This document shows, piece after piece, positions 6,224-45,273 of a DNA stretch of 54,184 nt. The translations under genes were made by a program, and so were the position numbers. Below the pieces are notes generated by a model that did no database searches, had not been told where the DNA came from, and saw only the letters and a list, made by a program, of their open reading frames with translations. The stretch comes from Cardiobacteriaceae bacterium (lineage in GTDB: Bacteria; Pseudomonadota; Gammaproteobacteria; Cardiobacteriales; Cardiobacteriaceae): the NCBI GenBank assembly GCA_017934275.1, contig JAGBJT010000006.1:1-54184 (forward strand). The letters are read 5' to 3'. Positions within the stretch are counted from its first letter, which is position 1. Every line of letters begins with the position of its first letter.

Positions 6224-6283
6224 ATGTGTAATCGACATTAAATTGATGAAATATTCCTTCAGATTATTGATTAAATTCCGCGC

Positions 6284-6327
6284 TTTTCAGAGTACTCTGA
6301 AAACAGTTCTTGACAAAGAACTGTTTT
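6284..6327 (+). promoter_or_regulatory. Palindrome-hairpin module, copy 1
   Basis: A perfect 20-bp palindrome, TTTTCAGAGTACTCTGAAAA (6284-6303), overlaps a perfect 12-bp hairpin (6300-6311 with 6316-6327, loop GACA). The last four As of the palindrome pair with the closing Ts of the hairpin, so the two structures compete. The same layout recurs at 33299-33344 and 35771-35815. Here no gene follows: a mobile element starts 12 bp downstream. The rest of 6182-6720 holds terminators and repeats but no supportable gene. Confidence 0.6.
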
Positions 6328-6338
6328 GTTAGCTTTGT

Positions 6339-6551
6339 TATGGTTGTTCCAATTAAAAATAATATTTAGTTAGCTTCGCCTCTCCGTATGCGCAGATATA
6401 GTCGTTTCAGTTCAAAATAAGACAAGGCAGCGAGCCGAAGACAGTATCTAGAATACGGCGAGGCGAAGCTAACGCAGTATTATTTTGAAATGGAACGACT
6501 ATACTGTCTTCGGCTCGCTGCCTTTTCTTATTTTGAATTGAAACGACTATA
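6339..6551 (+). mobile_element. Correia-like element (outer copy of nested pair)
   Basis: The outer element is split. Its left half (6339-6396) begins with a decayed terminal repeat (TATGGTTGTTCC) and its right half (6504-6551) ends in GAAACGACTATA. Joined through one TA, the halves give an element of about 108 bp, the size of the other copies. A second element in opposite orientation sits inside it at 6397-6503. Confidence 0.8.
6397..6503 (-). mobile_element. Correia-like element (inner copy)
   Basis: A 107-bp element, inverted relative to the other copies, runs from TATAGTCGTTTC to GAACGACTATA. The TA at 6397-6398 and the TA at 6502-6503 are consistent with TA target duplication. Its body carries the same conserved GACAAGGCAGCGAGCCGAAG and GGCGAGGCGAAGCTAACGC blocks, in reverse order, as the copies at 33070, 36001, 45167 and 47574. 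It has no coding capacity and would be moved by a transposase in trans. Confidence 0.88.
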
Positions 6552-33069: not shown

Positions 33070-33176
33070 TATAGTCGTTCCATTTCAAAATAATACTGCG
33101 TTAGCTTCGCCTCGCCGTATTCTAGATACTGTCTTCGGCTTGCTGCCTTGTCTTATTTTGAACTGAAACGACTATA
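33070..33176 (+). mobile_element. Correia-like element
   Basis: A 107-bp element from TATAGTCGTTCC to GAAACGACTATA. The terminal inverted repeats are about 24 bp and imperfect. The body has the conserved blocks GTTAGCTTCGCCTCGCCGTA and CTGTCTTCGGCTTGCTGCC. It sits between the dnaK stop and its terminator, so it will be in the dnaK 3' untranslated RNA and can fold as one long hairpin. Confidence 0.9.
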
Positions 33177-33221: not shown

Positions 33222-33298
33222 GTGCTGCATTGTGGCGGATAAATCTCGATATGTCATATTTTGTTTATAAATAGTATTGCAAAGTGTGGCAAAAATCG

Positions 33299-33348
33299 TT
33301 TTAGTCTAGACTAAAACCAGCTTTCTTGACAGAAAGCTGGTTTTTTTT
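33299..33348 (+). promoter_or_regulatory. Palindrome-hairpin module, copy 2
   Basis: The perfect 18-bp palindrome TTTTAGTCTAGACTAAAA (33299-33316) overlaps a perfect 14-bp hairpin (33313-33326 with 33331-33344, loop TGAC) followed by a run of Ts to 33348. The hairpin has the form of a terminator placed in the leader of the lipoprotein gene, which starts at 33369. The A tract is shared, so the palindrome arm and the hairpin exclude each other. This suggests an attenuator or an operator-terminator; the role is inferred. Confidence 0.6.
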
Positions 33349-33368: not shown

Positions 33369-34037
33369 ATGAAAAAGATACTAGCTTTTTCGGTTGTAAT
33401 TGCAATGTTGAGTTTGACTGGATGCGGTGGAAATGGCAATAGTTCAGAGCCGATTTATCCTGAACCAGAACCTTCTAAACCTACTTTGACAGGTGGCTAT
33501 TTAAATGTAACGACAGGCAAACAAGGAAATTTGTTGGATAACAAAAAGGAAACCGTAATTGTTTTGTCTGAAAATGAACAAATTAGTCTTGGAGATGCAA
33601 GCAAATTGCCTGCTTATGCAACATATGGTTCGGCGGCGGCAGTGTTATATAACGGTGATATTCTCCTAGCGCATCAAGGACAAGCTACACCAGAAAGTTC
33701 TTTGCCAACAGGAGTGGTTAATTATTCAGGTAATGCTTTTGTGTTGAAATCAAACTTGCCGTATAGCGAAAGCAATATGACGGTGAATGCAAAAGTTGAT
33801 ATTGAAGCATCGTTTAATTCAAAAACACTTAACGGCTCAATTTCTAACATCACGATTGGTAGTGAGACATTTAGAGATATCGCGCTTCAAGGGCAAATTA
33901 AGGGCAATAGATTCATCAGCACTAATTCCGTTGTGTTAGACGGTGGTTTTTACGGACCTGCTGCTCAAAATGCCGTTGGTGTGTTTAAGGACGGCGAGCA
34001 AGGTTTAGCAGGTGGTTTTGCGGCTGATAAAAAATAA
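33369..34037 (+). CDS. TbpB-like surface lipoprotein
   Basis: A 222-residue lipoprotein with signal peptide and lipobox LTGC (Cys19), then a Gly/Ser/Pro-rich tether. The C-terminal half (about 115-220) has the small beta-barrel pattern of transferrin-binding-protein B lobes: YSGNAFV, VDIEASFNSKTLNGSISN, then GQIKGNRF, GGFYGPAAQNAVGVF and a final GGFAADKK. Such lipoproteins are often moved to the cell surface by Slam; no Slam gene is in this window. It could bind a host iron or heme protein or another ligand, and the ligand cannot be read from the sequence. It stands behind the palindrome-hairpin module. Confidence 0.8.
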   Translation: MKKILAFSVVIAMLSLTGCGGNGNSSEPIYPEPEPSKPTLTGGYLNVTTGKQGNLLDNKKETVIVLSENEQISLGDASKLPAYATYGSAAAVLYNGDILLAHQGQATPESSLPTGVVNYSGNAFVLKSNLPYSESNMTVNAKVDIEASFNSKTLNGSISNITIGSETFRDIALQGQIKGNRFISTNSVVLDGGFYGPAAQNAVGVFKDGEQGLAGGFAADKK

Positions 34038-34113: not shown

Positions 34114-35670
34114 TTAGTTTTCCTTCACAACCCAATCCTTCAAAGTCCGTAACTCTTCATCAAAACAAGCACCAATTTCGTAGAGTTTTTTCGAACCCTG
34201 TTCGTATTGAATTGCATAGCCTTTTTCGTCGATTTGCCGTAAAGCTTCTTCTGATGTGCCACGCAATTTGAATTCAAAAACATAAACCGCATCCTCGGTT
34301 TCCAGCACGAAATCACTTCGTCCTGCGGCTGTTCGCTCTTCGGTGCGGACTTCAAAATAACTCGCCAGACGGAAGATTAAGTAGAACATTGTCTTGTAAT
34401 GCGCTTCGTTTTGTCGTTCAGCGTCATACGGTATTGATGAAAAAAAACTGCGCATTTGCTGCATCGCATCATCGACGCGGCGTTCTTCGAAGGCGAGCGT
34501 GAGTTCGGAGAGAAAAGATGAGTTTTTATCACTAGATGTTTTGGAGTAATACGGCATCAAGCACTCTAAAAATCCCAATCGCACCTCTTCATTCGGAAAA
34601 CCAAGTTGGTAACGAACGCCGCGCACGGATTTAATCGTTAAATAGCCGCTTTGGTAAAGGATTGGAATCGGTGTTTCAGCACGCTCGGTCGGAGTGTCAA
34701 AAATTTTTGTTGTTGCGTAAAAACCTTCCAGTTCTTCTGGTTTTAAGCTGTAATTTGCGAACATTTCGGTCAAATGCGTCGGTGTGCCTGAGGAGAACCA
34801 GTAATTATTAAATTCCAAATCCGCAAGGCAGTTTAATAAGCTGTAGGGGTTATAAATATCGGGGCAATTACGGCTGAAATGGTAGCCGTCGTATTTATTT
34901 TTTAGCATCAAGAGTGCATTTTCGAAAGATATTCCATTTTTTTCGGCAAGAGCTTGAACTTCTGGTTGTAAATATTTGATTATTTCCGCTTCCGTGATGC
35001 CGCAAATTGTGGCGTAGTCGTCGTTTATCGAGATTATTTTTAAGTTATTGAGCTCACTAAAAATACTCAATTGACTGAATTTAGTAATCCCCGTAAGGAA
35101 TACAAAACGCAGATGCTCGCCTGATTCTTTCAATGGGCTATAAAAAGAACGCAGCATCGTGCGCATTGTTTGGAAATTCTCATCATCAACGACGGTGTCA
35201 AGCAATGGCGCGTCATATTCATCGACGAGAACGACAACTTTTTCGCCTGTTTGAGCGCGGGCTCTGTCGATTAAAGTTTTTAAGCGAATTCCAGGCAGGA
35301 GTTCGGGAACGCTTGGAATGTCATACAAATGCTCGTATTTTCCCAGTGTATTGTCTAACAACTGCTGTAAATCGTTTGGCGAAGTAAATTTCACGCCACT
35401 CATATCAAACCGTAAAACTGGAAATTTTTTCCACTCTTGCTCCATTTTTTCGATTTCTAATCCTTCGAAAAGCTCTTTTTTGCCTTGAAAATATGCTTCC
35501 AAAGTTGTAACAAGTAGGCTTTTACCGAACCGCCGCGGACGGGATAAAAAGAATGCGGTATCGGTATGCGTCATTTTGTAAATCAGGGCGGTTTTGTCGA
35601 TATAGACGGAATTTTCTTCCCGTAAAGTTGGAAAATGAGAAACGGCGGTGAGAATTTTGCGAGGTGTCAT
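34114..35670 (-). CDS. AAA-ATPase-like / PD-(D/E)XK nuclease-like protein
   Basis: A 518-residue protein of the DUF1703-type family. The N-terminal AAA_ATPase-like domain (about 1-240) has IDKTALIYKM, the P-loop region SRPRRFGKSLL near residues 40-50 and the Walker B-like VVVLVDEYDAPLLD. The C-terminal PD-(D/E)XK domain shows RSDFVLETEDAVYVFEFK near residues 448-465, with the D-(E)xK catalytic arrangement. Members are common, often in many copies, in Bacteroidetes and host-associated proteobacteria. Their function is unproven; a role in defence or mobility is only a guess. It lies on the minus strand between two genes that share a leader module. Confidence 0.88.
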   Translation of the reverse strand: MTPRKILTAVSHFPTLREENSVYIDKTALIYKMTHTDTAFFLSRPRRFGKSLLVTTLEAYFQGKKELFEGLEIEKMEQEWKKFPVLRFDMSGVKFTSPNDLQQLLDNTLGKYEHLYDIPSVPELLPGIRLKTLIDRARAQTGEKVVVLVDEYDAPLLDTVVDDENFQTMRTMLRSFYSPLKESGEHLRFVFLTGITKFSQLSIFSELNNLKIISINDDYATICGITEAEIIKYLQPEVQALAEKNGISFENALLMLKNKYDGYHFSRNCPDIYNPYSLLNCLADLEFNNYWFSSGTPTHLTEMFANYSLKPEELEGFYATTKIFDTPTERAETPIPILYQSGYLTIKSVRGVRYQLGFPNEEVRLGFLECLMPYYSKTSSDKNSSFLSELTLAFEERRVDDAMQQMRSFFSSIPYDAERQNEAHYKTMFYLIFRLASYFEVRTEERTAAGRSDFVLETEDAVYVFEFKLRGTSEEALRQIDEKGYAIQYEQGSKKLYEIGACFDEELRTLKDWVVKEN

Positions 35671-35770
35671 AACGGTATTTGCAACAAATTAAAACTTGGG
35701 TTTGATTTTAAGCCAAATGGTTGCTAATAAATTTGTATATATGAAGTCTGGCAATGCAATACAAAAATCG

Positions 35771-35815
35771 GTTTAGTCTAGACTAAACCCCGTTATCTTG
35801 ACAGATAACGGGGTT
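35771..35815 (+). promoter_or_regulatory. Palindrome-hairpin module, copy 3
   Basis: The perfect 18-bp palindrome GTTTAGTCTAGACTAAAC (35771-35788) overlaps a perfect 13-bp hairpin (35786-35798 with 35803-35815, loop TGAC). The core TTTAGTCTAGACTAAA is identical to copy 2, and both are preceded by AAAAATCG. The following gene starts at 35852. Here the hairpin is followed by GTCTTTAATT, not a pure T run. Confidence 0.6.
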
Positions 35816-35851: not shown

Positions 35852-37077
35852 ATGGATTTTATTTTTCATCAAAATAATCTGCAAGTTGGTAACAGCAAAA
35901 TTTCATTGATTTCAAAAACATATGGTTATTGTTTTCAAACGGGATTTTCTGAATATAAAAATCTGGTTATTCCTTGCCAAGAAACAGGAAGTAATGTTGT
36001 TATAGTTGTTCCATTTCAAAATAATACTGCGGAAGCTTCCTCGCCGTATTCTAGATACAGTCTTTAAGCTCGCTGCCTTGTCTTATTTTGAACTGAAAAG
36101 ACTATATAGCGATAGTGAGTGATAAATATATTGAAAAATACATACGCTATCCCTTATATCTAGATGAAGCGGCTGAAAATATAAATTCAATTGCAACGGA
36201 TATAAACGAACTTCGAGTTGGTAAAACTGTTTTATCACGCAGAGCTTATGGTAATGCTGTGCAATATTTCAACGGTAGGGAAAATTGCGGCACAGTTGTA
36301 ATACCAATAAACACAATGTCAGGACATTTTTTTATTATTTATGAAACTCATCGCATTCCCAAGAATGCAACTATCTTGCAAGAAAATATCTTACATAGTA
36401 ATAAAAAGGATATTGTTTGTAATGCAAATGTGGTATCTGTTGGTAAAGAAATACGCGTTTTGAATAAAGAAGTGCAACTTTATGATGCAAATGCAAACTT
36501 GCGTGATGAAGCCTATCGTCCTTTATATCAGCACGGTATTGAACATTTTTACCACTGTACGGCAAAAAGTAATATTGAAAATATTCTCGCAAAAGGCTTG
36601 TATTCAAGGCAGTATCTAGAAAAAGAACATATAACTTACGAAGAATTAGCAGAAATGAATATTCCTGATGAAAATGACATTGTTTCCTTGTCCTTTTCAA
36701 AGTTTCATCCAGATTATTACTATCCTGGTAGAGAAGAATTTAGCCAGCGAAAATGCGTAAGAGAGAAATTTCGTAAGAAAGAAATTGCCTATTTGAAAAT
36801 AAGCATCGATATTTTGAAAGCTCCCGCTTTGAAAATTGCATTTTGTGATATGGATCACAATTCAATGAATGTATCGGTTTCAGCTGGTGTGGATAAGATT
36901 AATTTGAAGTCAATAAAATATAACCGCAAGGCTGAAATATTAGTTCAAAGACATATTCCAGCAAAATATATTACGGTTGATAATGAAAACAATGGAACGA
37001 AAAATAACAATAAAGACGGTGCGAGAGTAGGTTTGGCACTTTTAGGTCTTGCTTTGGGAATACCACTGTTGGGCTAA
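35852..37077 (+). pseudogene. DarT-like ADP-ribosyltransferase gene split by a mobile element
   Basis: The gene starts at 35852 (AAAAGG upstream) and is interrupted at 36001-36106 by a Correia-like element; the disrupted frame stops inside the element at 36067. Removing the element and one TA joins codon ATA across the site and gives one open frame of 373 codons. The second part carries a DarT/DUF4433-like domain: FYHCTAKSNIENILAKGL with the ART histidine, then SLSFSKF, and RKAEILVQRHIPAKYI with the likely catalytic Glu. The N-terminal 190 or so residues are unrecognised. The last 19 residues (GARVGLALLGLALGIPLLG) are hydrophobic. No DarG macrodomain antitoxin is adjacent. Use of the GTG at 36115 as a start is unlikely, because no ribosome-binding site precedes it. 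Confidence 0.72.
36001..36106 (+). mobile_element. Correia-like element inside the DarT-like gene
   Basis: A 106-bp element from TATAGTTGTTCC to AAAAGACTATA, flanked by TA on both sides. The body differs at a few positions from the copy at 33070 (for example AAGCTTCCTCGCC). It introduces an in-frame stop at 36065-36067 into the host gene. Confidence 0.9.
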
Positions 37078-45166: not shown

Positions 45167-45273
45167 TATAGTCGTTCCACTTCAAAATAATACTGCGTTA
45201 GCTTCGCCTCGCCGTATTAGGCATACTGTCTTCGGCTCGCTGCCTTGTCTTATTTTGAATTGAAACGACTATA
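45167..45273 (+). mobile_element. Correia-like element between rraA and aroG
   Basis: A 107-bp element from TATAGTCGTTCC to GAAACGACTATA with the conserved GTTAGCTTCGCCTCGCCGTA and CTGTCTTCGGCTCGCTGCC blocks. It occupies nearly half of the 231-bp divergent space between rraA (start 45110) and aroG (start 45342). Confidence 0.9.

Follow-up and report, generated by a model that had tools for sequence, protein, structure and literature searches.

What kind of element is a perfect palindrome that runs directly into a perfect hairpin, and why does it stand at three places in one stretch of Cardiobacteriaceae DNA? The window, by which we mean the whole 54,184-nucleotide stretch that was analyzed (contig 31 of the source genome, an incomplete assembly of 1.4 Mb), had been described in an earlier note as carrying such a palindrome (H1) and adjoining hairpin (H2) at three sites. 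Both parts are real and perfect in all three copies (see table), although two of the starts given in that note were off by one base (they are 33298 and 35770) and the palindrome size of 18-20 bp narrows to 20 bp throughout; the 12-14 bp given for the hairpins was correct. When the entire window was scanned on structure alone, the only perfect palindromes with arms of at least 8 were the three at the noted sites, and the heptamer CTTGACA lies at the hairpin tip in each of them. Dinucleotide-preserving shuffles of the window (n=100) yielded about two palindromes of this arm length per shuffle and none with an adjoining hairpin.

Table. Module copies, neighboring genes and copies outside the window; C numbers are contigs of the respective genome.
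Feature	Coordinates	Strand	Description
Copy 1, H1	6284-6303	+	20-bp perfect palindrome TTTTCAGAGTACTCTGAAAA, core AGAGTACTCT
Copy 1, H2	6300-6327	+	12-bp perfect hairpin, loop GACA; CTTGACA at 6309-6315; tail TTTTGTTA
Copy 2, H1	33298-33317	+	20-bp perfect palindrome GTTTTAGTCTAGACTAAAAC, core AGTCTAGACT
Copy 2, H2	33313-33344	+	14-bp perfect hairpin, loop TGAC; CTTGACA at 33325-33331; strong T tract
Gene led by copy 2	33369-34037	+	222-aa lipoprotein, TbpB_B_D domain
Divergent multi-copy gene	34114-35670	-	AAA-ATPase_like + PDDEXK_9 (DUF1703 family), 518 aa
Upstream leader part conserved in copies divergent from the AAA-ATPase/nuclease gene	35690-35769	+	Ends ATACAAAAATC
Copy 3, H1	35770-35789	+	20-bp perfect palindrome GGTTTAGTCTAGACTAAACC, core AGTCTAGACT
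Copy 3, H2	35786-35815	+	13-bp perfect hairpin, loop TGAC; CTTGACA at 35797-35803
Frame led by copy 3	35852-36067	+	71 aa, apparently cut by dispersed repeat
Further source-genome copies	C55:27062, C16:18450, C19:367, C14:60494, C7:1959, C27:3133, C14:30302, C55:773, C50:5648, C3:1, C30:3092, C38:71858, C62:13887		In addition to the three window copies
Sister-genome copies	C17, C18, C39, C41, C30, C15		C30 decayed; C15 cut by dispersed repeat

The H1 palindrome measures 18-26 bp across copies, mostly exactly 20, and has the core AGWSTASWCT (AGTCTAGACT or AGAGTACTCT) and outer arms that are free in sequence (GGTTT, GTTTT, GATTT, AGTTT, TTTTC, CTGTA, CCAAA, TTGCA). The description of the stems as wholly different from copy to copy went too far, since copies 2 and 3 share one core and copy 1 has the other. 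In 12 distinct modules the 48 outer H1 pairs comprise 47 Watson-Crick pairs and a single G-U, compared with 43% when arms are swapped between modules. The arms of H2 (e.g. CCCCGTTATC, CCAGCTTTC, ACAGTTC, GAGCTTCTT, GGGCGGAC, AAGTCCGC, CTCCTTTTTC) are likewise complementary within modules and not between them (102 of 108 pairs versus 40%). In a structure-fitted alignment 12 of 17 pairs had changed on both sides and 97.9% of the cells were paired, a level reached in 0 of 500 shuffles; sliding the partners within the same alignment lowered pairing to 37-52%. The co-variation that had been read as the sign of a functional structure is thus borne out.

As RNA the tips read U-CUAG-A or A-GUAC-U in H1 and UUGACA in H2. 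The H2 loop had been reported as a constant TGAC, and what holds of this is that CTTGACA is kept; the unpaired bases themselves vary, with GACA in copy 1, TGAC in the other two window copies and ACTTG in the copy at C14:30302 (GACA, UGAC and ACUUG in the transcript). Because the loop register shifts between copies in this way, it is the CTTGACA sequence and not the register that is conserved. Pairing is almost purely Watson-Crick and G-U pairs are scarce for an RNA stem. As DNA, however, the C30 palindrome has a flaw (its loop reads CTAC), whereas the sense RNA closes into a full hairpin with one U-G wobble, and another U-G pair sits at the H2 foot in C27; these wobbles, few as the cases are, favor selection acting on the RNA rather than the DNA level.

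Searches by DNA sequence, by pattern and by covariance model found 16 copies in the source genome and 6 in a sister species of the same genus (a 'Cardiobacteriaceae bacterium' from roe deer reticulum, whose genome is also incomplete), giving 22 in two species; the C3 and C50 copies may be one locus split by the assembly. The earlier note had named two outcomes as fatal to its proposal, a lack of further copies in the genome, or three copies that prove to be unrelated terminators whose loop is not conserved in relatives; the genome has many further copies, and the sister species retains the loop sequence. Outside the genus, a two-part pattern search returned nothing structured in 32 genomes of the order or 369 of the class, the same kind of pattern recovered only the sister genome from a contig collection of 85,000 species, and it gave no structured module in viral contigs, phages and plasmids. 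The 29 viral contigs that did match AGAGTACTCT...CTTGACA are coincidences, because their palindrome arms are merely 5-7 and their hairpins 2-5 bp. A scan free of sequence assumptions came back empty over 400 kb from other Cardiobacteriaceae and brought up no module with other tips in a further 223 kb of the source genome, and weak covariance-model matches in other Cardiobacteriaceae were ordinary terminators or chance. Within the organisms searched, then, the module is restricted to one Cardiobacteriaceae genus. In agreement with the first impression that no named element has this form, Rfam 15 gave no family at the gathering threshold over the window; at a relaxed threshold, applied to five loci, only sub-threshold matches overlapped the modules (the best being NmsRb at 27.8 bits against 52), and we recognized no description of the module in the open-licence papers that were searched. 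Searches by sequence similarity miss elements of this sort, and the members reported here were reached only through short fixed tips combined with structure.

The placement of the module is regular. In sixteen copies the distance to a downstream start codon, itself furnished with a Shine-Dalgarno-like sequence, is 37-52 nt; in ten of these it is 37-42 nt, and nearly all copies with an intact gene behind them fall in the wider range. About 20 genes are led across the two sister rumen bacteria, and these are mostly single and unrelated: they include TbpB/FHBP-like lipoproteins (the gene led by copy 2 and the one in C50), Sel1-repeat proteins (C27, C30), a glycine-zipper lipoprotein (C62), a DUF805 protein (C38), a DUF6150 protein (C14b and its sister-species counterpart G001:C39), an interrupted DarT-like gene in the window and several small membrane proteins. 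By a crude count, envelope proteins are not significantly enriched among them (11/16 versus 25/51, p = 0.14). Both internally mutated copies precede a lost or broken gene. In C19 one base change breaks both stems, and the locus has a small gene in the sister species and none in the source genome; the sister-species copy G001:C30 has CTCGACA and one mismatch per stem, and the lipoprotein gene behind it has a broken frame. Copy 1 has no gene behind it and its module is still perfect; a dispersed repeat lies there instead, whose arrival was perhaps recent.

Some features of these neighborhoods deserve mention in their own right. The dispersed repeat occurs in the window at 6398-6550, 33071-33175 and 45168-45272, with a related one near 36005-36110; its ends are inverted (ATAGTCGTT(C/T)CA(A/G)TTCAAAATA), and it is inserted in module-led frames or modules in the 36005 region and in G001:C15. 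Behind copy 3 a DarT-like frame (ssDNA ADP-ribosyltransferase family) continues at 36115-37077, and the DarT-like gene as a whole (35852-37077) appears to be split by the repeat. At the C50 locus of the source genome (L100, G000:C50) an unusually G+C-rich stretch, in a genome of 42% G+C, lies about 60 bases 5' of the module and adjoins a contig end; it is possibly an assembly chimera. The flank 5' of copy 1 (6245-6283) resembles that of the copy at C14:30302 (G000:C14:30264-30301), both following the pattern TTGATG...ATTCCTTCA...ATTGATTA. These two copies make up a second leader family, and its upstream part may be the promoter.

H1 and H2 overlap in the intact modules, the 3' end of the first doubling as the 5' foot of the second. 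The shared stretch spans 2-8 bases (AAAA at 6300-6303 in copy 1, AAAAC in copy 2 and AACC in copy 3; others include AATC, AG, AAG, TTGGG, GCAA, TAAACT and AAAACTGT) and has two possible partners, the start of H1 and the end of H2. We compared full H1 plus trimmed H2 with trimmed H1 plus full H2 in 10 modules (G1AAA and C30 were left out) and found that the two states differ by no more than 1 kcal/mol in 7 modules and by no more than 3.5 kcal/mol in the whole set, although part of this balance arises automatically from the repeated stretch. The folds had been called mutually exclusive. They do compete, but only over 4-5 shared bases in the window copies, and both hairpins can coexist when trimmed; with so few shared bases and an automatic share in the balance, exclusion is real but partial. 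On stability alone H1 (-6 to -9 kcal/mol in most copies) is much weaker than H2 (-14 to -22 kcal/mol), so H1 would need help.

We favor the possibility, to which we give about an even chance, that the module acts in cis as a leader RNA specific to this lineage, and most likely as a transcription attenuator in which H1 competes with the base of a terminator. RNA polymerase would make H1 first, with a stem of at least 8 bp and the fixed tip AGWSUASWCU, and H2 next, with a stem of about 11-15 bp, the fixed CUUGACA tip and usually a U-rich tract after it. A full H1 would keep the base of H2 open, while a full H2 would shorten H1 by claiming its last 2-8 bases as its own 5' base. H2 would serve as the terminator (attenuator) in most copies, and a trans-acting protein or RNA that reads the fixed tips may shift the balance such that the downstream gene is transcribed or not. 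Our reasoning for favoring attenuation is that (i) the stretch after H2 is T-rich, with a mean of 5.9 T in 8, and (ii) H2 was called terminator-like in 3 of 3 window copies; the T tract is poor in C16, C30 and C38. Of the features by which a leader terminator is recognized in sequence, a terminator-like hairpin with a T tract is present and a competing alternative fold is present in part. Weighing against this reading are these poor tracts, the low stability of H1 by itself, the scarcity of G-U pairs, the negative searches for BglG-type and ANTAR factors, the small number of species (two) and the regions upstream of H1: a clear upstream promoter was seen only in C30 (TTGTCA-16-TATAAT), and in C62 the terminator of the upstream gene stops about 10 nt 5' of H1.

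More tentatively, and at rather less than an even chance, the modules could make up a regulon-wide class of leader RNA. This would be a branch-migration switch of overlapping hairpins that a dedicated factor reads at the tips only, leaving the stems free to evolve, in front of dispersed lineage-specific genes that include several surface lipoproteins. Should the module work in the way proposed, a set of mutually unrelated genes is held under one short RNA layout that conserves tips and a folding conflict rather than stems. The module would also point to a regulator that binds RNA in this rumen lineage, which is uncultured, and the targets of that regulator may include TbpB/FHBP-type surface lipoproteins.

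Could the module instead be passive, the terminator end of an AAA-ATPase/PDDEXK gene that spreads with its upstream region and happens to land before other genes? About nine copies are divergent from such a gene and near-identical over about 130 bp while standing before different genes, and the family (13 matches in the source genome and 16 in the sister, many of them fragments at contig ends) gave no match at E 1e-30 in 11 other genomes tested, Cardiobacteriaceae included, so that among the genomes tested it is expanded only in the genus of these two species. Expansions of the DUF1703 family, to which no role is assigned, are known elsewhere (PMC6387759), and 'mobile attenuators' have been described (PMC2965389); by analogy with the latter the AAA-linked copies may have spread together with the gene. 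Recent copying is true of these near-identical copies. It cannot explain the copies elsewhere, however, because their stems are different: many copies have unrelated yet complementary stems, and several have no AAA gene in the neighborhood that was fetched. In addition, the stems pair perfectly in front of intact genes, two copies that lack an intact gene carry mutations in them, and we consider the passive explanation unlikely. At another copy of the AAA gene (L163 = G000:C29, 5' of 14263; L167 = G001:C56) a run of 16-18 A, which could vary in length, lies upstream together with the inverted repeat TGACAATTTTTGTCG / CTGACAAAAATTGTCG, and both stand before a gene whose product resembles a secreted protein.

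Other explanations make different use of the same features. If arms of H1 or H2 paired with the ribosome-binding site, the H1/H2 balance could expose or hide it, and long pairings of this kind are striking in C62 (CAGATTGC with GCAATCTG), C38, C50 and C27. The permutation p value is 0.02 (0.03 for H1 of the copies that are not AAA-linked), but relative to the ribosome-binding sites of the genome background the combined Fisher p value is 0.45 (0.11 without AAA-linked copies), and AAA-linked copies pair on average worse than background. We rejected such sequestration as a general mechanism and regard a translational switch as improbable. A conserved tip on a variable stem is typical of nick sites, and CTTG^A is the nick site in some rolling-circle origins. 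Recognition of the hairpins as single-stranded or cruciform DNA, for example by a HUH nickase or the neighboring PD-(D/E)XK nuclease, would suit the nearly complete Watson-Crick pairing and the occurrence of nuclease family and module in the same genus; the fixed orientation and distance to start codons, the T-rich tail and the several copies away from the nuclease gene make it very improbable. A shade more remote is the idea that the modules form the 3' parts of a family of genes for trans-acting small RNAs, standing before other genes by happenstance: H1 with a terminator-like H2 and conserved unpaired tips resembles many sRNA ends, yet the distance to the start codons, which have Shine-Dalgarno sequences, is steady at 37-52 nt and the module is mutated where the gene behind it is lost or broken. 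We give least credence to a DNA promoter with TTGACA as its -35 box and H1 as operator. TTGACA is the exact sigma-70 -35 consensus, its spacing to the ATG hardly varies (10 copies have 37-42 nt) and in C62 there is not much space for a promoter further upstream, but there is no -10 element at spacers of 15-19 (the score is below the shuffled mean, p = 0.98), and a promoter would explain neither covarying stems around a -35 box nor why the outer palindrome varies symmetrically. A promoter in the loop was rejected for want of that -10 element, and a plain DNA operator for H1 was rejected in that it does not explain outer five positions that vary yet stay complementary. A leader peptide across H1 (in copy 3, ATG CAA TAC AAA AAT CGG TTT AGT CTA GAC TAA) was also rejected, as an ATG-TAA breaks it in C16 and C14b.

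There is precedent for parts of the attenuator reading that we favor. Premature-terminator attenuators and 'mobile attenuators' are terminator-like hairpins directly 5' of unrelated genes, some of which have spread with mobile units (Naville and Gautheret 2010, PMC2965389). The module is similar in being a terminator-like hairpin directly before unrelated genes. It differs in that its stems covary rather than being copies of one sequence, its tips and overlap are fixed, and an extra palindrome hairpin always lies 5' of the terminator. In RAT sites of the BglG/SacY type a hairpin overlaps the base of the next terminator, and a protein that holds this hairpin allows readthrough. The module shares the overlap, which is a likeness in how the two would work; its H1, in contrast, is perfectly palindromic and has a loop of 4 bases, and no protein with the BglG-type CAT_RBD domain (PF03123) was found in either of the two incomplete genus genomes by a search whose controls were positive. 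ANTAR-dependent antitermination (EutV, NasR) uses tandem hairpins with hexaloops in which A1 and G4 are conserved. The likeness here is that one fixed-tip hairpin follows another and that the later one conflicts with termination, but the tips of the module do not fit the A1/G4 rule and its second hairpin is itself the terminator; a search for ANTAR (PF03861) gave no match, although its control matched nowhere either. BIME/REP and similar elements are dispersed palindromic units able to terminate transcription and attenuate (PMC2965389). The module is likewise a dispersed palindromic unit, but its stem sequence is not conserved, whereas its orientation and position before start codons are fixed. 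Since the second hairpin is terminator-like in most copies, the nearest kind, the transcription attenuators, is known even though the element is not: an attenuator-like cis-regulatory leader RNA belongs to a known kind, and what is new, to our knowledge, is that free stems occur together with two fixed tips and an obligatory overlap.
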